A stretch of 64,000 nucleotides of DNA from Polystyrenella longa (GTDB lineage: Bacteria; Planctomycetota; Planctomycetia; Planctomycetales; Planctomycetaceae): contig NZ_CP036281.1 of NCBI RefSeq assembly GCF_007750395.1, positions 4,859,001-4,923,000 on the forward strand. Reading direction: 5' to 3'. Shown here one piece after another: positions 57,362 to 64,000 of this stretch. The notes under the pieces are model-generated. The model had not been told where the DNA came from. It worked only from the letters and a program-made list of their open reading frames with translations, and made no database searches. A program made the translations under genes and the position numbers. Each line of letters starts with the position of its first letter. The first letter of the stretch is position 1.

Positions 57362-58921
57362 TCAGCGAATGAGCCGTGAATCTTTCAGGGCCTGCTGCTC
57401 CTGACGCCATTCTTCGATGTCCCCAAACAGAGAAGCTAACGCTCTACGGAGATCACGAAGATCGAGGGGAGAGCTCAAGATTTGCACGAACGTCGACTCG
57501 GACATTTTCTTCCGGCACTCTGCTTGCTTCGCAGAGAGGATCGTGATCAGGGGAATTTCGGCATCGTTCGCCAATTCAACGGCACGGTTGTGAGCACGGA
57601 TGACATCGTCTCCAAGCGCATTTCCCATCAGCAGAATACAGTCTGGTGGGTCGTTTGAAATTCGTCGCAGTGCCCGACCGGGGTCTTCCATCAGCAGCAT
57701 CCGGACACCGTGCTTGCCAAAGTAGTCTCGCAACACGGACTGAAATTTCGGACGGGTTTCCACACAGATCATCTTCAAATTGTTGAAGGTTTTCTTGACG
57801 CCCGCTGCGGCCAACTCACTGTCGGAATCGGAAGAACCTGAACTTAAATTGACCGATTCTGCATTCGGCTGATTCGCCCGAGCCACCGCCGTGGGTGGTT
57901 GGTGAACACCGATTTGGACTTGTAACTCTTCGAGATCGGCCACAAGCTCCGAAGCCGATTGATAGCGTAACTGAGGATCAAACTTGATCAGTTTCTCTAC
58001 GACGGTCACCACTTCTTTGGGGAGGTCGGGAATGTGGGTACGGATTGGTTTGATATTCATATACCGCAAAATGTTTTTACGTTCATCCCGATTGCGAGTC
58101 CGCTGGTAGGGGGGCAGACCGGCGAGCAATTCGTAATAAATGACGCCCAGGAAAAAGAGGTCAGACCGCGGGTCGTTCCGGTCGACGCTGGTCGCTTTCT
58201 CGAGGGTCGCATACTCCAACGCATGCTGAGGAGTTTCTCCCCGGGTACCGATCGCCGCTTCAGAATCCCCCGCCAAACCAAAGTCCGCGAGTTTGGCAAC
58301 GCCCTGAGTGTTGAGCAGGATATTCGTCAACTTCATGTCACGATGGGTCACGCCCATGCGGAGTGCGTATTCTAATCCACGGGCAATCTGAGTGACATAC
58401 CCGGTCGCCTCTGCCGGAGAGAGCTGTTTGCGAATTTTGAGAAAGTCGCGGAGGTTTCCTCCTTCAACGAACTCCATCGTGAAGTAGTGATTCTCGTCGT
58501 CAATTCCGACATCATAAATGGGAACGATATTCGGGTGACGCAATTTTTGGCAAAGCTCTGCTTCCCGATGGAAATGGTTGACCATGTCCTTATCGCTCAA
58601 CCAACGCTGGCGCAGAATTTTGAGTGCAATGATTTCATCGGTACCCAAAGTCGCCGCTCGAAACACTCTCGCAAAACTCCCGGAGTCATTCCGATAAAGC
58701 AGTTTGTAATTCCCGATGACCAGGCTGGCTGTGTCTCCTTTATGGAGTCGACCGAGCTGGTATGGAGTCAGCAGATGTCGCTGTTCCAGAACGGACAGCA
58801 ATTCCGCAGGAGTATTCTCCTTCAGATCGAGCCCTACCAGACACGACTGCAGTACAACTGGATCGATCAGTTGCATCTGAAATAGTGTCTGTAGAAGTTC
58901 TTCTAAGGTGCGAAAAGCCAT
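57362..58921 (-). CDS. Ser/Thr protein kinase fused to a receiver-like domain
   Basis: 519 residues. N-terminal helical module ~1-65 (ends LLTPYQLGRLHKGD, seen in many planctomycete kinases). Kinase domain ~71-335: glycine loop degenerate (YRNDSGSFARVF), Lys101 in IALKIL, H194-R-D-M-K, D214-F-G, and an ALEYATLEKA in the activation segment. A Ser/Asn-rich linker follows, then ~380-510 with a CheY-like pattern: LKMICVETRPKFQSVLRDYF, PPDCILLMGNALGDD, EIPLITILSAK. The position of the phosphoacceptor Asp is Met or Gly (ILLMGN), so it seems to be a pseudo-receiver. Cytosolic, no membrane segment. Confidence 0.88.
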   Translation of the reverse strand: MAFRTLEELLQTLFQMQLIDPVVLQSCLVGLDLKENTPAELLSVLEQRHLLTPYQLGRLHKGDTASLVIGNYKLLYRNDSGSFARVFRAATLGTDEIIALKILRQRWLSDKDMVNHFHREAELCQKLRHPNIVPIYDVGIDDENHYFTMEFVEGGNLRDFLKIRKQLSPAEATGYVTQIARGLEYALRMGVTHRDMKLTNILLNTQGVAKLADFGLAGDSEAAIGTRGETPQHALEYATLEKATSVDRNDPRSDLFFLGVIYYELLAGLPPYQRTRNRDERKNILRYMNIKPIRTHIPDLPKEVVTVVEKLIKFDPQLRYQSASELVADLEELQVQIGVHQPPTAVARANQPNAESVNLSSGSSDSDSELAAAGVKKTFNNLKMICVETRPKFQSVLRDYFGKHGVRMLLMEDPGRALRRISNDPPDCILLMGNALGDDVIRAHNRAVELANDAEIPLITILSAKQAECRKKMSESTFVQILSSPLDLRDLRRALASLFGDIEEWRQEQQALKDSRLIR

Positions 58922-59214: not shown

Positions 59215-60402
59215 TCATTCGGAGGCTTGGCCCGAGCGTGTATAGCGTAATTGGCCTTCCACGACTGTCTTCAGAATGTCAATTCGGGCCGCTGATTCGT
59301 CGTAATCGAACTGTATCATGTCCGCCAGACCTCCCGGTTCCAGCAAACCCGTCTCGATCCCAAACAGTCTCCCAGGATTTCGAGAAGCAAAATCGACTGC
59401 GTCGGCCAGCGAAATTTCCTCCACCATTCGTGGTAATTCGGCCACACACATTTCTGTTGTCGCGCCGGAACCTGCCAGAAGTTGATTTTGCCCTGCAATC
59501 ACGTGGCGACCGTCCTCTAGAATTTCGACGTTCAAACTCTCGGACTCATAAACGCCGGGAGATAATCCTGCGAGCCCCGATGCATCGCAGGTGATCAACA
59601 TTCGCTCGTAGCCCTTCACGCGGTAGGCAATTTTGGCAACGCTGCCTGGAATATGATGTCCGTCGGTGATCAAACAGCAGTGAAGTCGATCGTCCGCCAA
59701 CTGCTCCCAGATATAATTCGGGTGCCGGCGAATCATTCCCTGGGCCCCATTGCCCAAGTGAGTGCTCATCCGTGCGCCTGCGTCAGCGGCGGCACGAATC
59801 AGATCCGGGCTTGCTGCGGTATGACCGATCGACACAACAACTCCCGAATTCACTGCCTTCGGTATAAATTCCAGCACTCCTTCCTGCTCGGGCGCGACGG
59901 TGATCAGCTTGATCCGATTGCCCGATAATTCCTGCAGCTTGCTGAATTCGGTCCAGTCAGCGGGTCGGATATGTTCCAGCGGATGCGCGCCGCGAGAGCC
60001 ATCTTCGGCTGAAAGGTAGGGGCCTTCCAAATGACAGCCGGCAACCAATTGATCGATTTCAGGGTGCTCTTCACATACTTCTTTTAATGTAGCAAATCCA
60101 TCCGCTAGCGCTTCGTGCGAACTGGTAATCAATGTCGGAAAGAGCTTGGTGACGCCAGCCGCCAGATACGGCTCGATCGCCTGAATGGCCTCGTCAACAG
60201 TTAGACCTCGTTTGCAGAACCAAATCCCTCCGTACCCATTGATTTGCATGTCAAACAATCCGGGCGCTAAGTAAGGAAGTTTCTTCGTATCCTCATCATC
60301 AACACGCAAAGGTTCGACCGTTTGAATCCGGCCTCCTTCCCAGGAGATCATGACCGGTTCGAGGGTATCGTATCGCTTTCCGGAGAGTCGCTGTGTGATC
60401 AT
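59215..60402 (-). CDS. nagA: N-acetylglucosamine-6-phosphate deacetylase
   Basis: 395 residues. Amidohydrolase motifs: LAPGLFDMQINGYGG, the metal-binding GCHLEGPYLS, ISIGHTAA (second His set), STHLGNGAQGM and the catalytic-Asp segment TCDASGLAGLSPG. RNPGRLFGIETG at the end is a further signature. It releases acetate from GlcNAc-6-phosphate, feeding amino-sugar and cell-wall recycling in the cytosol. Divergent from the GntR gene, with two operator-like palindromes between, so repression by that regulator is likely. Confidence 0.95.
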   Translation of the reverse strand: MITQRLSGKRYDTLEPVMISWEGGRIQTVEPLRVDDEDTKKLPYLAPGLFDMQINGYGGIWFCKRGLTVDEAIQAIEPYLAAGVTKLFPTLITSSHEALADGFATLKEVCEEHPEIDQLVAGCHLEGPYLSAEDGSRGAHPLEHIRPADWTEFSKLQELSGNRIKLITVAPEQEGVLEFIPKAVNSGVVVSIGHTAASPDLIRAAADAGARMSTHLGNGAQGMIRRHPNYIWEQLADDRLHCCLITDGHHIPGSVAKIAYRVKGYERMLITCDASGLAGLSPGVYESESLNVEILEDGRHVIAGQNQLLAGSGATTEMCVAELPRMVEEISLADAVDFASRNPGRLFGIETGLLEPGGLADMIQFDYDESAARIDILKTVVEGQLRYTRSGQASE

Positions 60403-60611
60403 CTAGTTGTTCCGAAACTGGCAAGGCATTATCGGGGGTTCATATATAACCACCGGGGGCAGTTTTGTTCTCCTCCTATATAAGGAGAACGAGAATTGAA
60501 TCAAAATATCCATTTTTAAACCGCAAACGGAGCGAGTTTGATCAAATCACCCTGCTTTTGCAACAAGCGTGCTGTAATGAGAAGAGCAGAAAAGCAGCCC
60601 AAACTTTTCAA

Positions 60612-60640
60612 TTGACCCGAATCAAATGTCGTGATAGGAT
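60612..60640 (+). promoter_or_regulatory. Candidate promoter of the GntR gene
   Basis: TTGACC (60612-60617), exact 17-bp spacer, TAGGAT (60635-60640). The -10 box touches the first TTGTCGACA palindrome. Confidence 0.5.
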
Positions 60641-60650
60641 TGTCGACAAT
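60639..60650. promoter_or_regulatory. Operator 1, ATTGTCGACAAT
   Basis: Perfect 12-bp palindrome overlapping the promoter -10/start area. TTGT...ACAA half-sites are typical of FadR/FCD-type GntR operators. Confidence 0.6.
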
Positions 60651-60681
60651 TACACCACGCATTGCTGGGAATCCTTTAAAT

Positions 60682-60690
60682 TTGTCGACA
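60682..60690. promoter_or_regulatory. Operator 2, TTGTCGACA
   Basis: Second copy of the same core. Its centre is 42 bp from that of operator 1, about four helical turns, so both face the same side of the DNA. Confidence 0.55.
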
Positions 60691-60738
60691 GACTTGAAGC
60701 TGGCTTCCCTTTCCCATTAGTATATACTGATATGTCTT

Positions 60739-61431
60739 ATGAGCGCTACGTTAAAAGAGACAGCCTACCAAACGATCCGGGAAAAGTTGATCTCAGGCCA
60801 TTTTCCTCCGGGGAGCCGCCTGTCCGATGACTCGATCGCCCGGGAAATCGGCATCAGCCGCAGCCCCGTTCGGGAAGCAATAAATCAGTTCGTCAGTGAG
60901 GGATTAGTAGAATACCGCCCCCGCTGTGGAACGTATGTTAGAAAACCGACCTTGAAGGAACTCGACGACTTGTGGGGTGTCCGCGTCGCGATGGAAAGTT
61001 TTGCCGTCGTTGAAGCTGTGGACCGATTGACAGAAGCGAGCCTTCAATTGATGAAAGAGTTTAACAGTGAGTTGCTTGTCGTCGTGCGCGACTGTCGTCG
61101 ACTTCCCAATCAACTTGCGAATGAAGAATTGAAACAACGATTTCTTCAGACGGATTCCTGCTTCCATCTGGAGATTCTGAATTCGGCCGGTAACGACCGT
61201 GTACTGAAAATTGTACAGGAATGCCGGTTGATGATGTTTATCTTTGGAGCCACTCATTCGGCTGTGCGGGTGACGGCAGACATGATGCTGCAATCTCAGC
61301 GGGAACATGATTTAATTATCAAAGCCATCGAAAACTTGGACCATAATAATGCCCGTGAATGGGTGGGTACCCATATCCGCACGACGCGCGCCCGCGTAAT
61401 GGCTCAACTGGAACAGGTCTCCCTCCTCTAG
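60739..61431 (+). CDS. GntR-family transcriptional regulator, FCD (FadR) subgroup
   Basis: 230 residues. Winged-helix DNA-binding domain ~5-72: TIREKLISGHFPPGSRLSDDSIAREIG and SRSPVREAINQFVSEGLVEYRPRCGTYV. The C-terminal all-helical FCD ligand-binding domain carries conserved FHLEILNSAGNDRVL and REHDLIIKAIENLD, where Asp/His residues can bind a metal with the effector. It probably autoregulates and controls nagA through TTGTCGACA sites upstream. The inducer could be an amino-sugar phosphate or an organic acid. The second cytochrome-C gene follows on the same strand. Confidence 0.93.
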   Translation: MSATLKETAYQTIREKLISGHFPPGSRLSDDSIAREIGISRSPVREAINQFVSEGLVEYRPRCGTYVRKPTLKELDDLWGVRVAMESFAVVEAVDRLTEASLQLMKEFNSELLVVVRDCRRLPNQLANEELKQRFLQTDSCFHLEILNSAGNDRVLKIVQECRLMMFIFGATHSAVRVTADMMLQSQREHDLIIKAIENLDHNNAREWVGTHIRTTRARVMAQLEQVSLL

Positions 61432-61533
61432 GGCACACCACCGATTTCCAATCGAATATGTAACCAATCCATCTTTCCGAAAACGGAATCAGAACCTTAA
61501 CTGCCAGGTTCACCAGATCAAAAAGGTTTGACT

Positions 61534-64000
61534 GTGTTGCCAACTTTCACCGTAAATAATCGAGCACACTGGTTAAGTAGAAATCAGCTCACTACCGGAC
61601 TCTTGTTCGGGCTGACTGTCGTTTGGGGATTCCCCGGACAGGCCGAAGAAGAAGTTCCTGCTGCGAAACCTGCGACTGAATTCAGCGCCGGACAGATTGA
61701 ACACTTCGAGAAAAAGATTCGTCCACTTCTCGTCGAACGCTGTCAGGATTGCCACAACACTGAAGTCAGTGAAGGAGGACTCGATCTCAGTTCTCGCCCC
61801 GGGATTCTGAAAGGGGGCGATTCAGGTTCTGCTTTCGACAATAATCATCCGCCCCAAAGTCTGCTCCTTGATGCGATCAGCTATAAACCGGATGCTATCG
61901 TCGAGATGCCGCCGGATGGTCGATTAGATCCGGCCGAAGTCGCCGCGATCACGAAGTGGGTCGAAGAAGGTTTACCCTGGCCAGGCGCTCAGCCCACGCC
62001 TGAAGGTGACGACGTAGCAGAAGAGGAATCTGACTTTCCGTTCACTGAGGAACAACTGCAATACTGGTCATTTCAAGTCCCCACAAAAGCCGAGCCCCCT
62101 CAGGTGAAACAGACCGAATGGCCGCGAAATGAAATCGATCACTTTATTCTGGCTCAGCTCGAAGCCAACGAGATGCACCCCGCCCCCCAGGCAGACAAGC
62201 TGACATTACTTCGTCGGGCGACTTTTGATTTAACTGGCCTGCCGCCAACTCCAGAAGAAATTCGCGAATTCGTGGCGGATGAAAATGAAGATGCCTTCGC
62301 CAAAGTCGTGGACAGGTTACTCGCCAGCGATGCTTACGGAGAACGCTGGGGCCGTCATTGGCTGGACATCGCCCGCTACGCAGACACCAACGGGATGGAC
62401 GAAAACATGGCGTATGCATACGCCTATCTGTACCGCAACTATGTCATCAGCGCTTTCAACAAAGACAAACCTTACGATCAGTTTATTAAGGAACAGCTGG
62501 CGGGAGACTTGATCCCCCATCCGGATGACGAGCAACAGACGATCGAAAGACAGATTGCCACCGGATTTCTCGCGATCGGTCCGAAAATGTTGGCCGAGGA
62601 CGACCCGGTCAAAATGCACATGGATATTATCGATGAGCAATTGGACACGTCTGGAAAAGCGTTTCTGGGTATGACGTTGGGATGCGCTCGCTGTCACGAT
62701 CACAAGTTCGATCCGATTACGGCGAAGGATTACTACAGCCTGGCGGGTATCTTCAAAAGTACGAAAACGATGGAGAACTATCGAGTCGTCGCGCAGTGGT
62801 ACGAACGACCGGTTGAACCTCAAGCACGAATCGATGCGTATGCTGCTTATGAAAAAGATCGTGATGCTGTCAAAAAGACCATCGATGAATTGGTCAACAA
62901 AGCGAATACCGAGATTCAAATCGCTGCACGGACTCGGGCGAAGGAATATCTGCTGGCCGCGACTTCAGTCCTGTCGTCACGCAGTCACTTCGATCAACTG
63001 GTCGATCAATGGAACAACGATAAAACAGCATCAGTCGAAAACAGCATCGATCGATTGGCTGAAAAATTCGACCGAGGGAATGTCGACGTACAGGAACAAA
63101 CCGCCGACCCTCGAGTAGCCGTTATCCTGACTTTCAAACAGGGTGCGTCGATGGCGGAATATGATGTCGAGATTCCCCAGGAGGGCAAATATGCGATGTT
63201 CCTGCAGTACGCCGCTCATCAATCCCGTCCGCTGAAAATCAGCGTGAATGGAGAAGTGATCAAAGAAACAGCTGCTGATCAAGTCACCGGAAGCTGGGGA
63301 CCTGACGGTCAAAAGTGGTTCTTTGAGCAAGTCATCGACTTAAAGCAGGGCAAAAACATTGTTCAGCTCGCCTGTACAAAACTATTCCCTCACGTTCATC
63401 AGTTTCGTTTAGTTCCGGAATCTGCAGATGGCACTATAGTACCGCCTATCGCATCTACGGATCAGAACCAGTCAGAGTCAGATTTGAATTCGCTGATTCT
63501 CGATCAATGGGTCAGTTTTCTGAAAGCAGAAGAAGCAAATCCGAAGTCCATTTTTAAACCTTGGTTTGCCCTTGGTAAAAATCAAGACGAAGCCGATCCA
63601 GCCTATTCTCGCTTGAAGACCAGTGTTCAAAAAGCAACAAAGCACGCGAAAAACGATCTGGCAGAAAGCTACGCCGCATTGTTCCTGGAGGCCGAACAGT
63701 CTTGGACGGCAATGAAGGCAGAAGAAGCAACCAAAGAAGCGATGGCTCTTCCTGATGCCGAACTGGAAGCCTTCAGACAAGTCTACCTGGGAGAGAAAGG
63801 ACCTTTCCGAGTTCCGGAAAATGTGGAACAAGGTTATAGCGAAGAGGTTAAACCTCTCCTTGGAGAGCATCGGTCGAAACTGAAAGCAATTGAAGACAAT
63901 GCACCGGCGCCATTGCAACTTGCATTGGGAGTCACGGAATCTAAAATTGAAAACATGCAGGTCTGCATCCGTGGGAATCATGTCAACCTAGGTCCGGAAG
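61534..64000 (+). CDS. Planctomycete cytochrome C / DUF1549 protein with inserted carbohydrate-binding-like domain, 3' end outside window
   Basis: Frame open to the window end, at least 822 residues. GTG 61534 is chosen as start because AAAAAGG lies 7 nt before it and a signal peptide follows (GLLFGLTVVWGFPGQA). Haem site C70-Q-D-C-H74. DUF1549 runs ~185-400 with EIDHFILAQLEAN, RWGRHWLDIARYAD and CARCHDHKFDPI. Residues ~530-630 (VILTFKQGASMAEYDVEIPQEGKYAMFLQY written in parts) look like a jelly-roll CBM6/35-type module. VCIRGNHVNLGPE at the end marks the beginning of DUF1553, which is cut. Predicted periplasmic. Confidence 0.92.
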   Translation, partial: MLPTFTVNNRAHWLSRNQLTTGLLFGLTVVWGFPGQAEEEVPAAKPATEFSAGQIEHFEKKIRPLLVERCQDCHNTEVSEGGLDLSSRPGILKGGDSGSAFDNNHPPQSLLLDAISYKPDAIVEMPPDGRLDPAEVAAITKWVEEGLPWPGAQPTPEGDDVAEEESDFPFTEEQLQYWSFQVPTKAEPPQVKQTEWPRNEIDHFILAQLEANEMHPAPQADKLTLLRRATFDLTGLPPTPEEIREFVADENEDAFAKVVDRLLASDAYGERWGRHWLDIARYADTNGMDENMAYAYAYLYRNYVISAFNKDKPYDQFIKEQLAGDLIPHPDDEQQTIERQIATGFLAIGPKMLAEDDPVKMHMDIIDEQLDTSGKAFLGMTLGCARCHDHKFDPITAKDYYSLAGIFKSTKTMENYRVVAQWYERPVEPQARIDAYAAYEKDRDAVKKTIDELVNKANTEIQIAARTRAKEYLLAATSVLSSRSHFDQLVDQWNNDKTASVENSIDRLAEKFDRGNVDVQEQTADPRVAVILTFKQGASMAEYDVEIPQEGKYAMFLQYAAHQSRPLKISVNGEVIKETAADQVTGSWGPDGQKWFFEQVIDLKQGKNIVQLACTKLFPHVHQFRLVPESADGTIVPPIASTDQNQSESDLNSLILDQWVSFLKAEEANPKSIFKPWFALGKNQDEADPAYSRLKTSVQKATKHAKNDLAESYAALFLEAEQSWTAMKAEEATKEAMALPDAELEAFRQVYLGEKGPFRVPENVEQGYSEEVKPLLGEHRSKLKAIEDNAPAPLQLALGVTESKIENMQVCIRGNHVNLGPE

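Follow-up and report, generated by a model that had tools for sequence, protein, structure and literature searches.

The GntR/FCD regulator encoded near the end of the Polystyrenella longa stretch analyzed here (64,000 nucleotides, referred to below as the window) quite likely represses its own operon through the palindrome TTGTCGACAA, which lies on the promoter of the regulator gene. The operon would comprise the regulator gene, a PSCyt1-PSCyt2-PSD1 gene, and a DUF1501 gene. The nagA-like deacetylase gene, the divergent neighbor of the regulator gene, is probably not a target of this regulator.

Two sites, to which we assign no strand, are present upstream of the regulator gene. Predicted operator 1 is the perfect palindrome ATTGTCGACAAT at positions 60639 to 60650; its core, TTGTCGACAA (positions 60640 to 60649), is located on the expected transcription start and is found exactly in all five orthologous regions. 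Predicted operator 2, TTGTCGACA at positions 60682 to 60690, lies in the regulator leader, and its core TGTCGACA (positions 60683 to 60690) is kept in all three congeners. The centers of the two operators, at 60644.5 and 60686.5, are 42 bp apart. The regulator promoter, on the plus strand, consists of the −35 box TTGACC (positions 60612 to 60617; TTGAC and a 17-bp spacing occur in five of five orthologous regions) and the −10 box TAGGAT (positions 60635 to 60640), the last base of which is common to the operator 1 core. It was the sole sigma-70-like promoter called in a scan of positions 60300 to 61700, and it is directed to the right, toward the GntR/FCD gene and away from nagA; the same scan called no leftward promoter. 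Both the palindrome overlapping the promoter and the second core centered 42 bp away are thus present as the original prediction had described them. That prediction had also called the promoter a good one: boxes and spacing are there, but the match alone does not exceed chance, with 1 found versus 1.6 expected from shuffled sequences, and on its own it means little. The operator is significant because it is conserved in relatives, and not by virtue of the promoter match alone.

The regulator gene (positions 60739 to 61431, plus strand) encodes 230 amino acids. Pfam matches identified an N-terminal GntR winged helix-turn-helix (HTH) (PF00392, 2.2e-18, above the cut-off) and a C-terminal FCD domain (PF07729, 1.6e-12, 48.3 bits versus a cut-off of 24.3), which agrees with the class initially assigned to this protein. 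FCD was the sole effector domain in the Pfam scan, in which no HutC-type effector domain was found, and the HutC and PhnF NCBIfam models cover only residues 11 to 72, i.e., the HTH. Residues D139, H143, H190, and H212, which we take to be the metal/ligand-binding residues of the FCD domain, are invariant in six of six aligned regulators and align with D, H, H, and H in 7xp0.

To find orthologues, 59 genomes and 170 family genomes (the P. longa genome, G000, is included in each set) were searched, as was a named genome collection. The regulator was found in five genomes, namely, G000 itself, G002 (86% identity; same contig as L053), G021 (62%; L054), G120 (44%; L056), and G001 (L055), where the first 22 residues, which precede the contig end, are 95% identical and the DNA is the same as that of G001 contig 210. 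Among the 170 family genomes, four (including that of P. longa) match the regulator at an E value of ≤1e-40, and the fifth case comes from the contig end. Of the six FCD proteins encoded by G000, this regulator is the one that the G021 and G120 proteins match best. In G021 (L054:1368-7820), a second GntR/FCD gene is located directly upstream of the regulator orthologue and adjoins a divergent cluster of symporter, enolase-superfamily, ceramidase-like, and DHDPS-family genes.

In all five genomes, exact TTGTCGACAA is present 83 to 102 bp upstream of the regulator start codon, at a position that ranges from 1 nucleotide overlapping to 5 nucleotides behind the −10 box of a TTGAC-17-TA/CANNNT promoter; the −10 boxes are TAGGAT (twice), TATAAT, CATACT, and CATAAT. 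Lack of conservation next to orthologous regulators had been set beforehand as grounds for rejecting the prediction, and the palindrome is conserved in five of five cases. Although only 89 of 353 alignment columns are invariant in the three congeners, no change falls within the 12 columns of operator 1 or the 9 columns of operator 2. We also compared 20 palindromes made from permuted half-sites at 54 of 56 FCD loci (L027 and L138 have no N-terminal match). TTGTCGACAA occurs exactly within 250 bp upstream of six of these 54 FCD homologues, and none of the remaining 19 palindromes does so for more than one; the upstream stretch of L028, where the contig begins at the gene, was miscut, which leaves the exact matches unaffected. 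L130, another FCD gene of G001, was rejected as a sixth case, its palindrome being inside coding sequence, which leaves five. Operator 2 differs in its distribution. The distance between its core, TGTCGACA, and operator 1 is 42 bp in G000 and 43 bp in both G002 and G001, and the core is absent from the orthologous regions of G021 and G120. The site pair is therefore a genus feature, in which a second site has joined a single site of wider distribution. The near-constant spacing, close to four helical turns in otherwise diverged DNA, argues for a functional operator 2. No TKGT-N2-3-ACMA sequence was found within 200 bp upstream of 46 of the 54 FCD homologues; this speaks against a general rule, and for the majority of the other FCD genes the search thus yielded no operator.

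It is highly improbable that the palindrome is a product of chance or a relic. The genome of 6.1 Mb contains 13 copies of TTGTCGACAA, i.e., 12 besides operator 1, 10 of which are inside open reading frames (ORFs) of at least 171 amino acids; chance sites near promoters do occur, as illustrated by serC. There, the palindrome follows TTGACG-16-TATAAA in G000, and we rejected serC as a target given that the palindrome is missing from four of four relatives. However, the genome's own count corresponds to only about 7e-4 palindromes expected per 336 bp, and a chance origin is already contradicted because TTGTCGACAA is conserved in five of five genomes and its place on the promoter is fixed.

The shorter sequence was also counted, including in the genome, a search suggested with the original prediction. 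In the window, TTGTCGACA has 4 strand matches (a palindrome being counted twice) versus 0.95 expected, a number reached by 2 of 100 shuffles; the 12-mer at up to 2 mismatches is not enriched in the window (6 versus 4.0 expected). Genome-wide, there are 75 strand matches versus 27 for the reversed control, at 62 distinct places, and no other two of these places are within 1 kb of each other. A wide TTGTCGACAA regulon is unsupported, since 55 of the 62 exact TTGTCGACA places are inside mechanical ORFs of at least 159 amino acids. The remaining seven are operators 1 and 2, the region upstream of serC (L044), L089, which has no ORF of at least 60 amino acids, and L048, L060, and L076, which have only short doubtful ORFs of 96 to 134 amino acids. 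The palindrome TTGTCGACAA is commoner than its reversed control in some genomes, as its counts indicate (6 versus 0 in G001, 10 versus 7 in G002, 6 versus 5 in G021, and 17 versus 4 in G120). In G120, 15 of the 16 copies besides the operator are inside ORFs of at least 70 amino acids. A combined promoter-plus-operator pattern matched 7 places in 6 of the 170 family genomes versus 4 places for the reversed control. Two of the seven are the G021 and G120 regulators, and among the other five the flanks were inspected for G021:C16; the pattern misses the three congeners because their −10 box and operator overlap.

The nagA-like gene (positions 59215 to 60402, minus strand) matches TIGR00221 at 4.1e-58, with 197.1 bits, which is under the curated cut-off of 225.65. 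NagC, of the ROK family, controls nagA, and its gene is located beside nagA. The regulator studied here resembles NagC, as well as NagR (HutC) and NagQ as far as the accessible part of the literature describes their control of nagA, in that its gene lies beside nagA, but it differs from them in being of the FCD and not the HutC or ROK type and in having a site whose conservation follows the regulator, not nagA. The site pair might alternatively be a shared control region, with the FCD regulator repressing nagA, its divergent neighbor, in addition to its own gene; the protein would then be an unusual GlcNAc regulator. We consider this unlikely. The two genes are divergent and adjacent in G000, G001, and G002, and, according to the part of PMC4494728 available, a single FadR-subfamily site in a divergon usually governs the genes on either side. 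This adjacency is, however, limited to the genus; the G021 and G120 regulators retain the operator although nagA is not their neighbor, and the closest nagA homologues of these two genomes (51 to 54%) have no TTGTCGACAA match at fewer than 3 mismatches within 500 bp. More distant second copies of nagA have no site within 500 bp in G021 and no TGTCGACA in the locus in G120. Furthermore, although the pair does lie between the two genes, in a gap of 336 bp, as had been predicted, it is not in the middle of this gap: operator 1 is centered 94 bp from the regulator start and 242 bp from nagA, operator 2 is centered 52 and 284 bp from them, respectively, and the promoter is directed away from nagA. 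nagA is instead paired with a protein kinase gene, which follows it in five of five genomes (positions 57362 to 58921 of the window; L105 to L109), the kinases of the four relatives being 48 to 86% identical to that of the window; nagA and the kinase gene are thus a kept pair. The control of nagA put forward originally is unsupported, as nagA adjoins the regulator only within the genus and its G021 and G120 orthologues have no site, and we caution against naming the protein a nag regulator after its neighbor gene. On the nagA side of the gap, the block GAGTTTGATC (positions 60534 to 60543, no strand assigned) is invariant in all three congeners and may be tied to the promoter of nagA itself or to a regulator of that gene.

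Another reading is cross-regulation of the locus: a different FCD regulator, for instance the PhyH-linked paralogue, would be the main protein binding the operator, or an additional one. The paralogues L057 (G000), L021 (G001), and L129 (G002) have a TGTCGACA core 73 to 78 bp upstream, and the second sites of the G001 and G002 regions, ATGTCGACAG, take an intermediate form; cross-talk is possible, since this core is common to two FCD regulators in one genome. We nevertheless regard this reading as quite unlikely for three reasons. (i) The outer bases differ (TTGTCGACAA versus ATGTCGACAC/T). (ii) In G120 and G021, it is TTGTCGACAA that accompanies the counterpart of the window's regulator. (iii) All four full-length regulators of the group have the same HTH sequence, SRSPVREAI, whereas the two aligned paralogues have SRAPIREAI. 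The PhyH-linked paralogue is 28 to 32% identical, with a PhyH gene beside L057 (Pfam match) and a similar gene beside L021; the core positions are L057:2072, L021:1422, and L129:639.

Self-repression by the FCD regulator would concern the genes that follow it. Domain matches identified a PSCyt1-PSCyt2(DUF1549)-PSD1(DUF1553) gene on the plus strand from position 61528 to position 64000, which runs past the window (genome positions 4920528 to 4923944) and the start codon of which is uncertain (TTG 61528, GTG 61534, TTG 61537, or TTG 61603). It is followed, outside the window, by a DUF1501 gene. Counterparts of the PSCyt and DUF1501 genes follow the regulator in G002 (67% and 89% identity, respectively) and G021 (53% and 77%). 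In G120, we found a DUF1501 gene that is only 27% identical downstream of the regulator, along with a divergent enolase-superfamily gene, and no PSCyt gene after the regulator. In the window, the gap between the regulator and PSCyt genes measures 96 bp when counted from TTG 61528, and a scan called no terminator-like site in it. Judged from this arrangement, a single regulator-PSCyt-DUF1501 operon is the simplest reading, although a gap of 96 bp means that the PSCyt gene could have its own promoter.

The linkage recurs beyond this regulator. PSCyt or DUF1501 matches were detected near 16 of the 54 FCD homologues, with 1.5 kb on each side covered for most loci from the search of 59 genomes and about 0.4 to 1.2 kb for loci of two further sets. 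Fifteen of these matches are downstream on the same strand and one is upstream (binomial P = 5e-4); without the five loci of the window's regulator, 11 are downstream and 1 is upstream, out of 49 loci. Among 80 control loci, 7 had a PSCyt/DUF1501 match in any orientation, but these loci differ in length and several are inside PSCyt/DUF1501 genes, and the contrast of 15 versus 1 is the better control. Wider stretches at these last 12 loci revealed the order FCD-PSCyt-DUF1501 in five (L195, L197, L198, L199, and L202), FCD-PSCyt in another five (L200 and L203 to L206), some of which are ended by contig ends, and FCD-DUF1501 in L201; the FCD gene is the last one in L196.

A second unit of this kind is present in P. 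longa itself, where one of the five other FCD genes, at L190, heads a PSCyt-DUF1501-enolase series. ATTGTTAACAAT is located about 98 bp before this regulator gene, in a gap of 237 bp (L190:2280-2516), in which it is the sole perfect inverted repeat with arms of at least 5 and a gap of at most 4. Relatives of the L190 regulator were found in 39 of the 170 family genomes at an E value of ≤1e-35. We sampled the best 20 of 58 matches (L208 to L227), which span three genera (3 loci from the same genus, 1 from G021, and 16 from one other genus). Exact TTGTTAACAA is present within 250 bp upstream in 16 of these 20 loci, the exceptions being L213, L214, L216, and L221, whereas each of four permuted palindromes is present in none; a PSCyt gene is downstream on the same strand in all 20. 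The conservation of TTGTCGACAA and TTGTTAACAA thus indicates that a TTGT-NN-ACAA palindrome has been retained by each of two different FCD regulators at the head of PSCyt units, with different centers: CG in the window unit and TA in the second unit. Directly upstream of another PSCyt gene of G000, on the same strand, there is an IclR-family regulator gene (L193:2983-3825), so units of this kind may also be headed by one-component regulators of other types.

Autoregulation is a feature of the GntR and UxuR groups of the FadR subfamily. The predicted system is similar to these groups in combining a GntR HTH with an FCD domain, in its TKGT/ACMA boxes, and in the location of the site beside the regulator gene, as judged from the accessible portion of the literature; it differs in its CG center (TTGTC-GACAA) and in the linked genes, PSCyt and DUF1501. 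In the part of PMC4494728 available, the FadR-subfamily consensus is NyGTM-N0-1-KACNy, with a 2-nucleotide GT-AC gap in the GntR and UxuR groups, and TTGTC-GACAA fits both, in line with the TTGT...ACAA-type FCD site originally proposed; the taxonomy table given there for 634 FadR-type regulators contains no planctomycetes. Two sites at near-constant spacing are also found in the double-site FadR/HutC divergons described in that part of PMC4494728, but here the pair is beside the regulator operon and not in the middle of the gap, which, by the reasoning of that source, points to control of one operon. For Rhodopirellula, the available part of PMC2754498 proposes that an ECF sigma factor controls a PSD1/PSCyt2 gene (RB10049/RB10051). 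There too, a regulator is linked to a gene that encodes PSD1 and PSCyt2 domains, but a one-component FCD regulator heads the unit in the window. In Verrucomicrobia, PSCyt2 genes adjoin a family of genes of unknown function according to the part of PMC5615132 available; to this we add the FCD gene heading PSCyt units. We found no link of FCD to PSCyt or DUF1501 in the portion of the open-licence literature that was accessible; the GntR mentions in the accessible part of the PSCyt/DUF literature concern heat shock and a PKS cluster and not PSCyt or DUF1501. No title on planctomycetes or FCD regulators appeared among the literature matches listed for TTGTCGACAA.

From the sequence, we infer how binding, repression, read-through, cooperativity, and ligand response might work in this putative operon. 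A dimer of the FCD regulator bound to operator 1 would sit over both the −10 box and the start, predicted at about position 60647, which is where a repressor classically binds, and would thereby repress the regulator gene; by way of read-through, repression would extend to the PSCyt1-PSCyt2-PSD1 and DUF1501 genes. Within the genus, a second dimer on operator 2, 42 to 43 bp downstream and on approximately the same face of the DNA, would strengthen repression, either through contact between the dimers or as a roadblock. A small ligand at the Asp/His3 site of the FCD domain would release the regulator, most likely a carboxylate, for example, an acid sugar. Acid sugars are suggested by the enolase-superfamily genes found close to the G021, G120, and L190 units; this hint is weak because no enolase-superfamily gene was found by similarity in L195 to L206.

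We consider it nearly an even question whether these units represent a recurring planctomycete operon type, FCD-PSCyt1/PSCyt2/PSD1-DUF1501, in which each unit would have its own regulator, its own TTGT-NN-ACAA palindrome, and a specific acidic substrate. The operator itself is textbook in kind, and the useful part is its link to the PSCyt and DUF1501 families, since it offers a defined and conserved point of entry to PSCyt-DUF1501 units. If FCD regulators do control PSCyt-DUF1501 units, the inducing ligand could be screened for and function would thus become testable; the regulator ligands would in that case show which substrates belong to two large protein families without known function.
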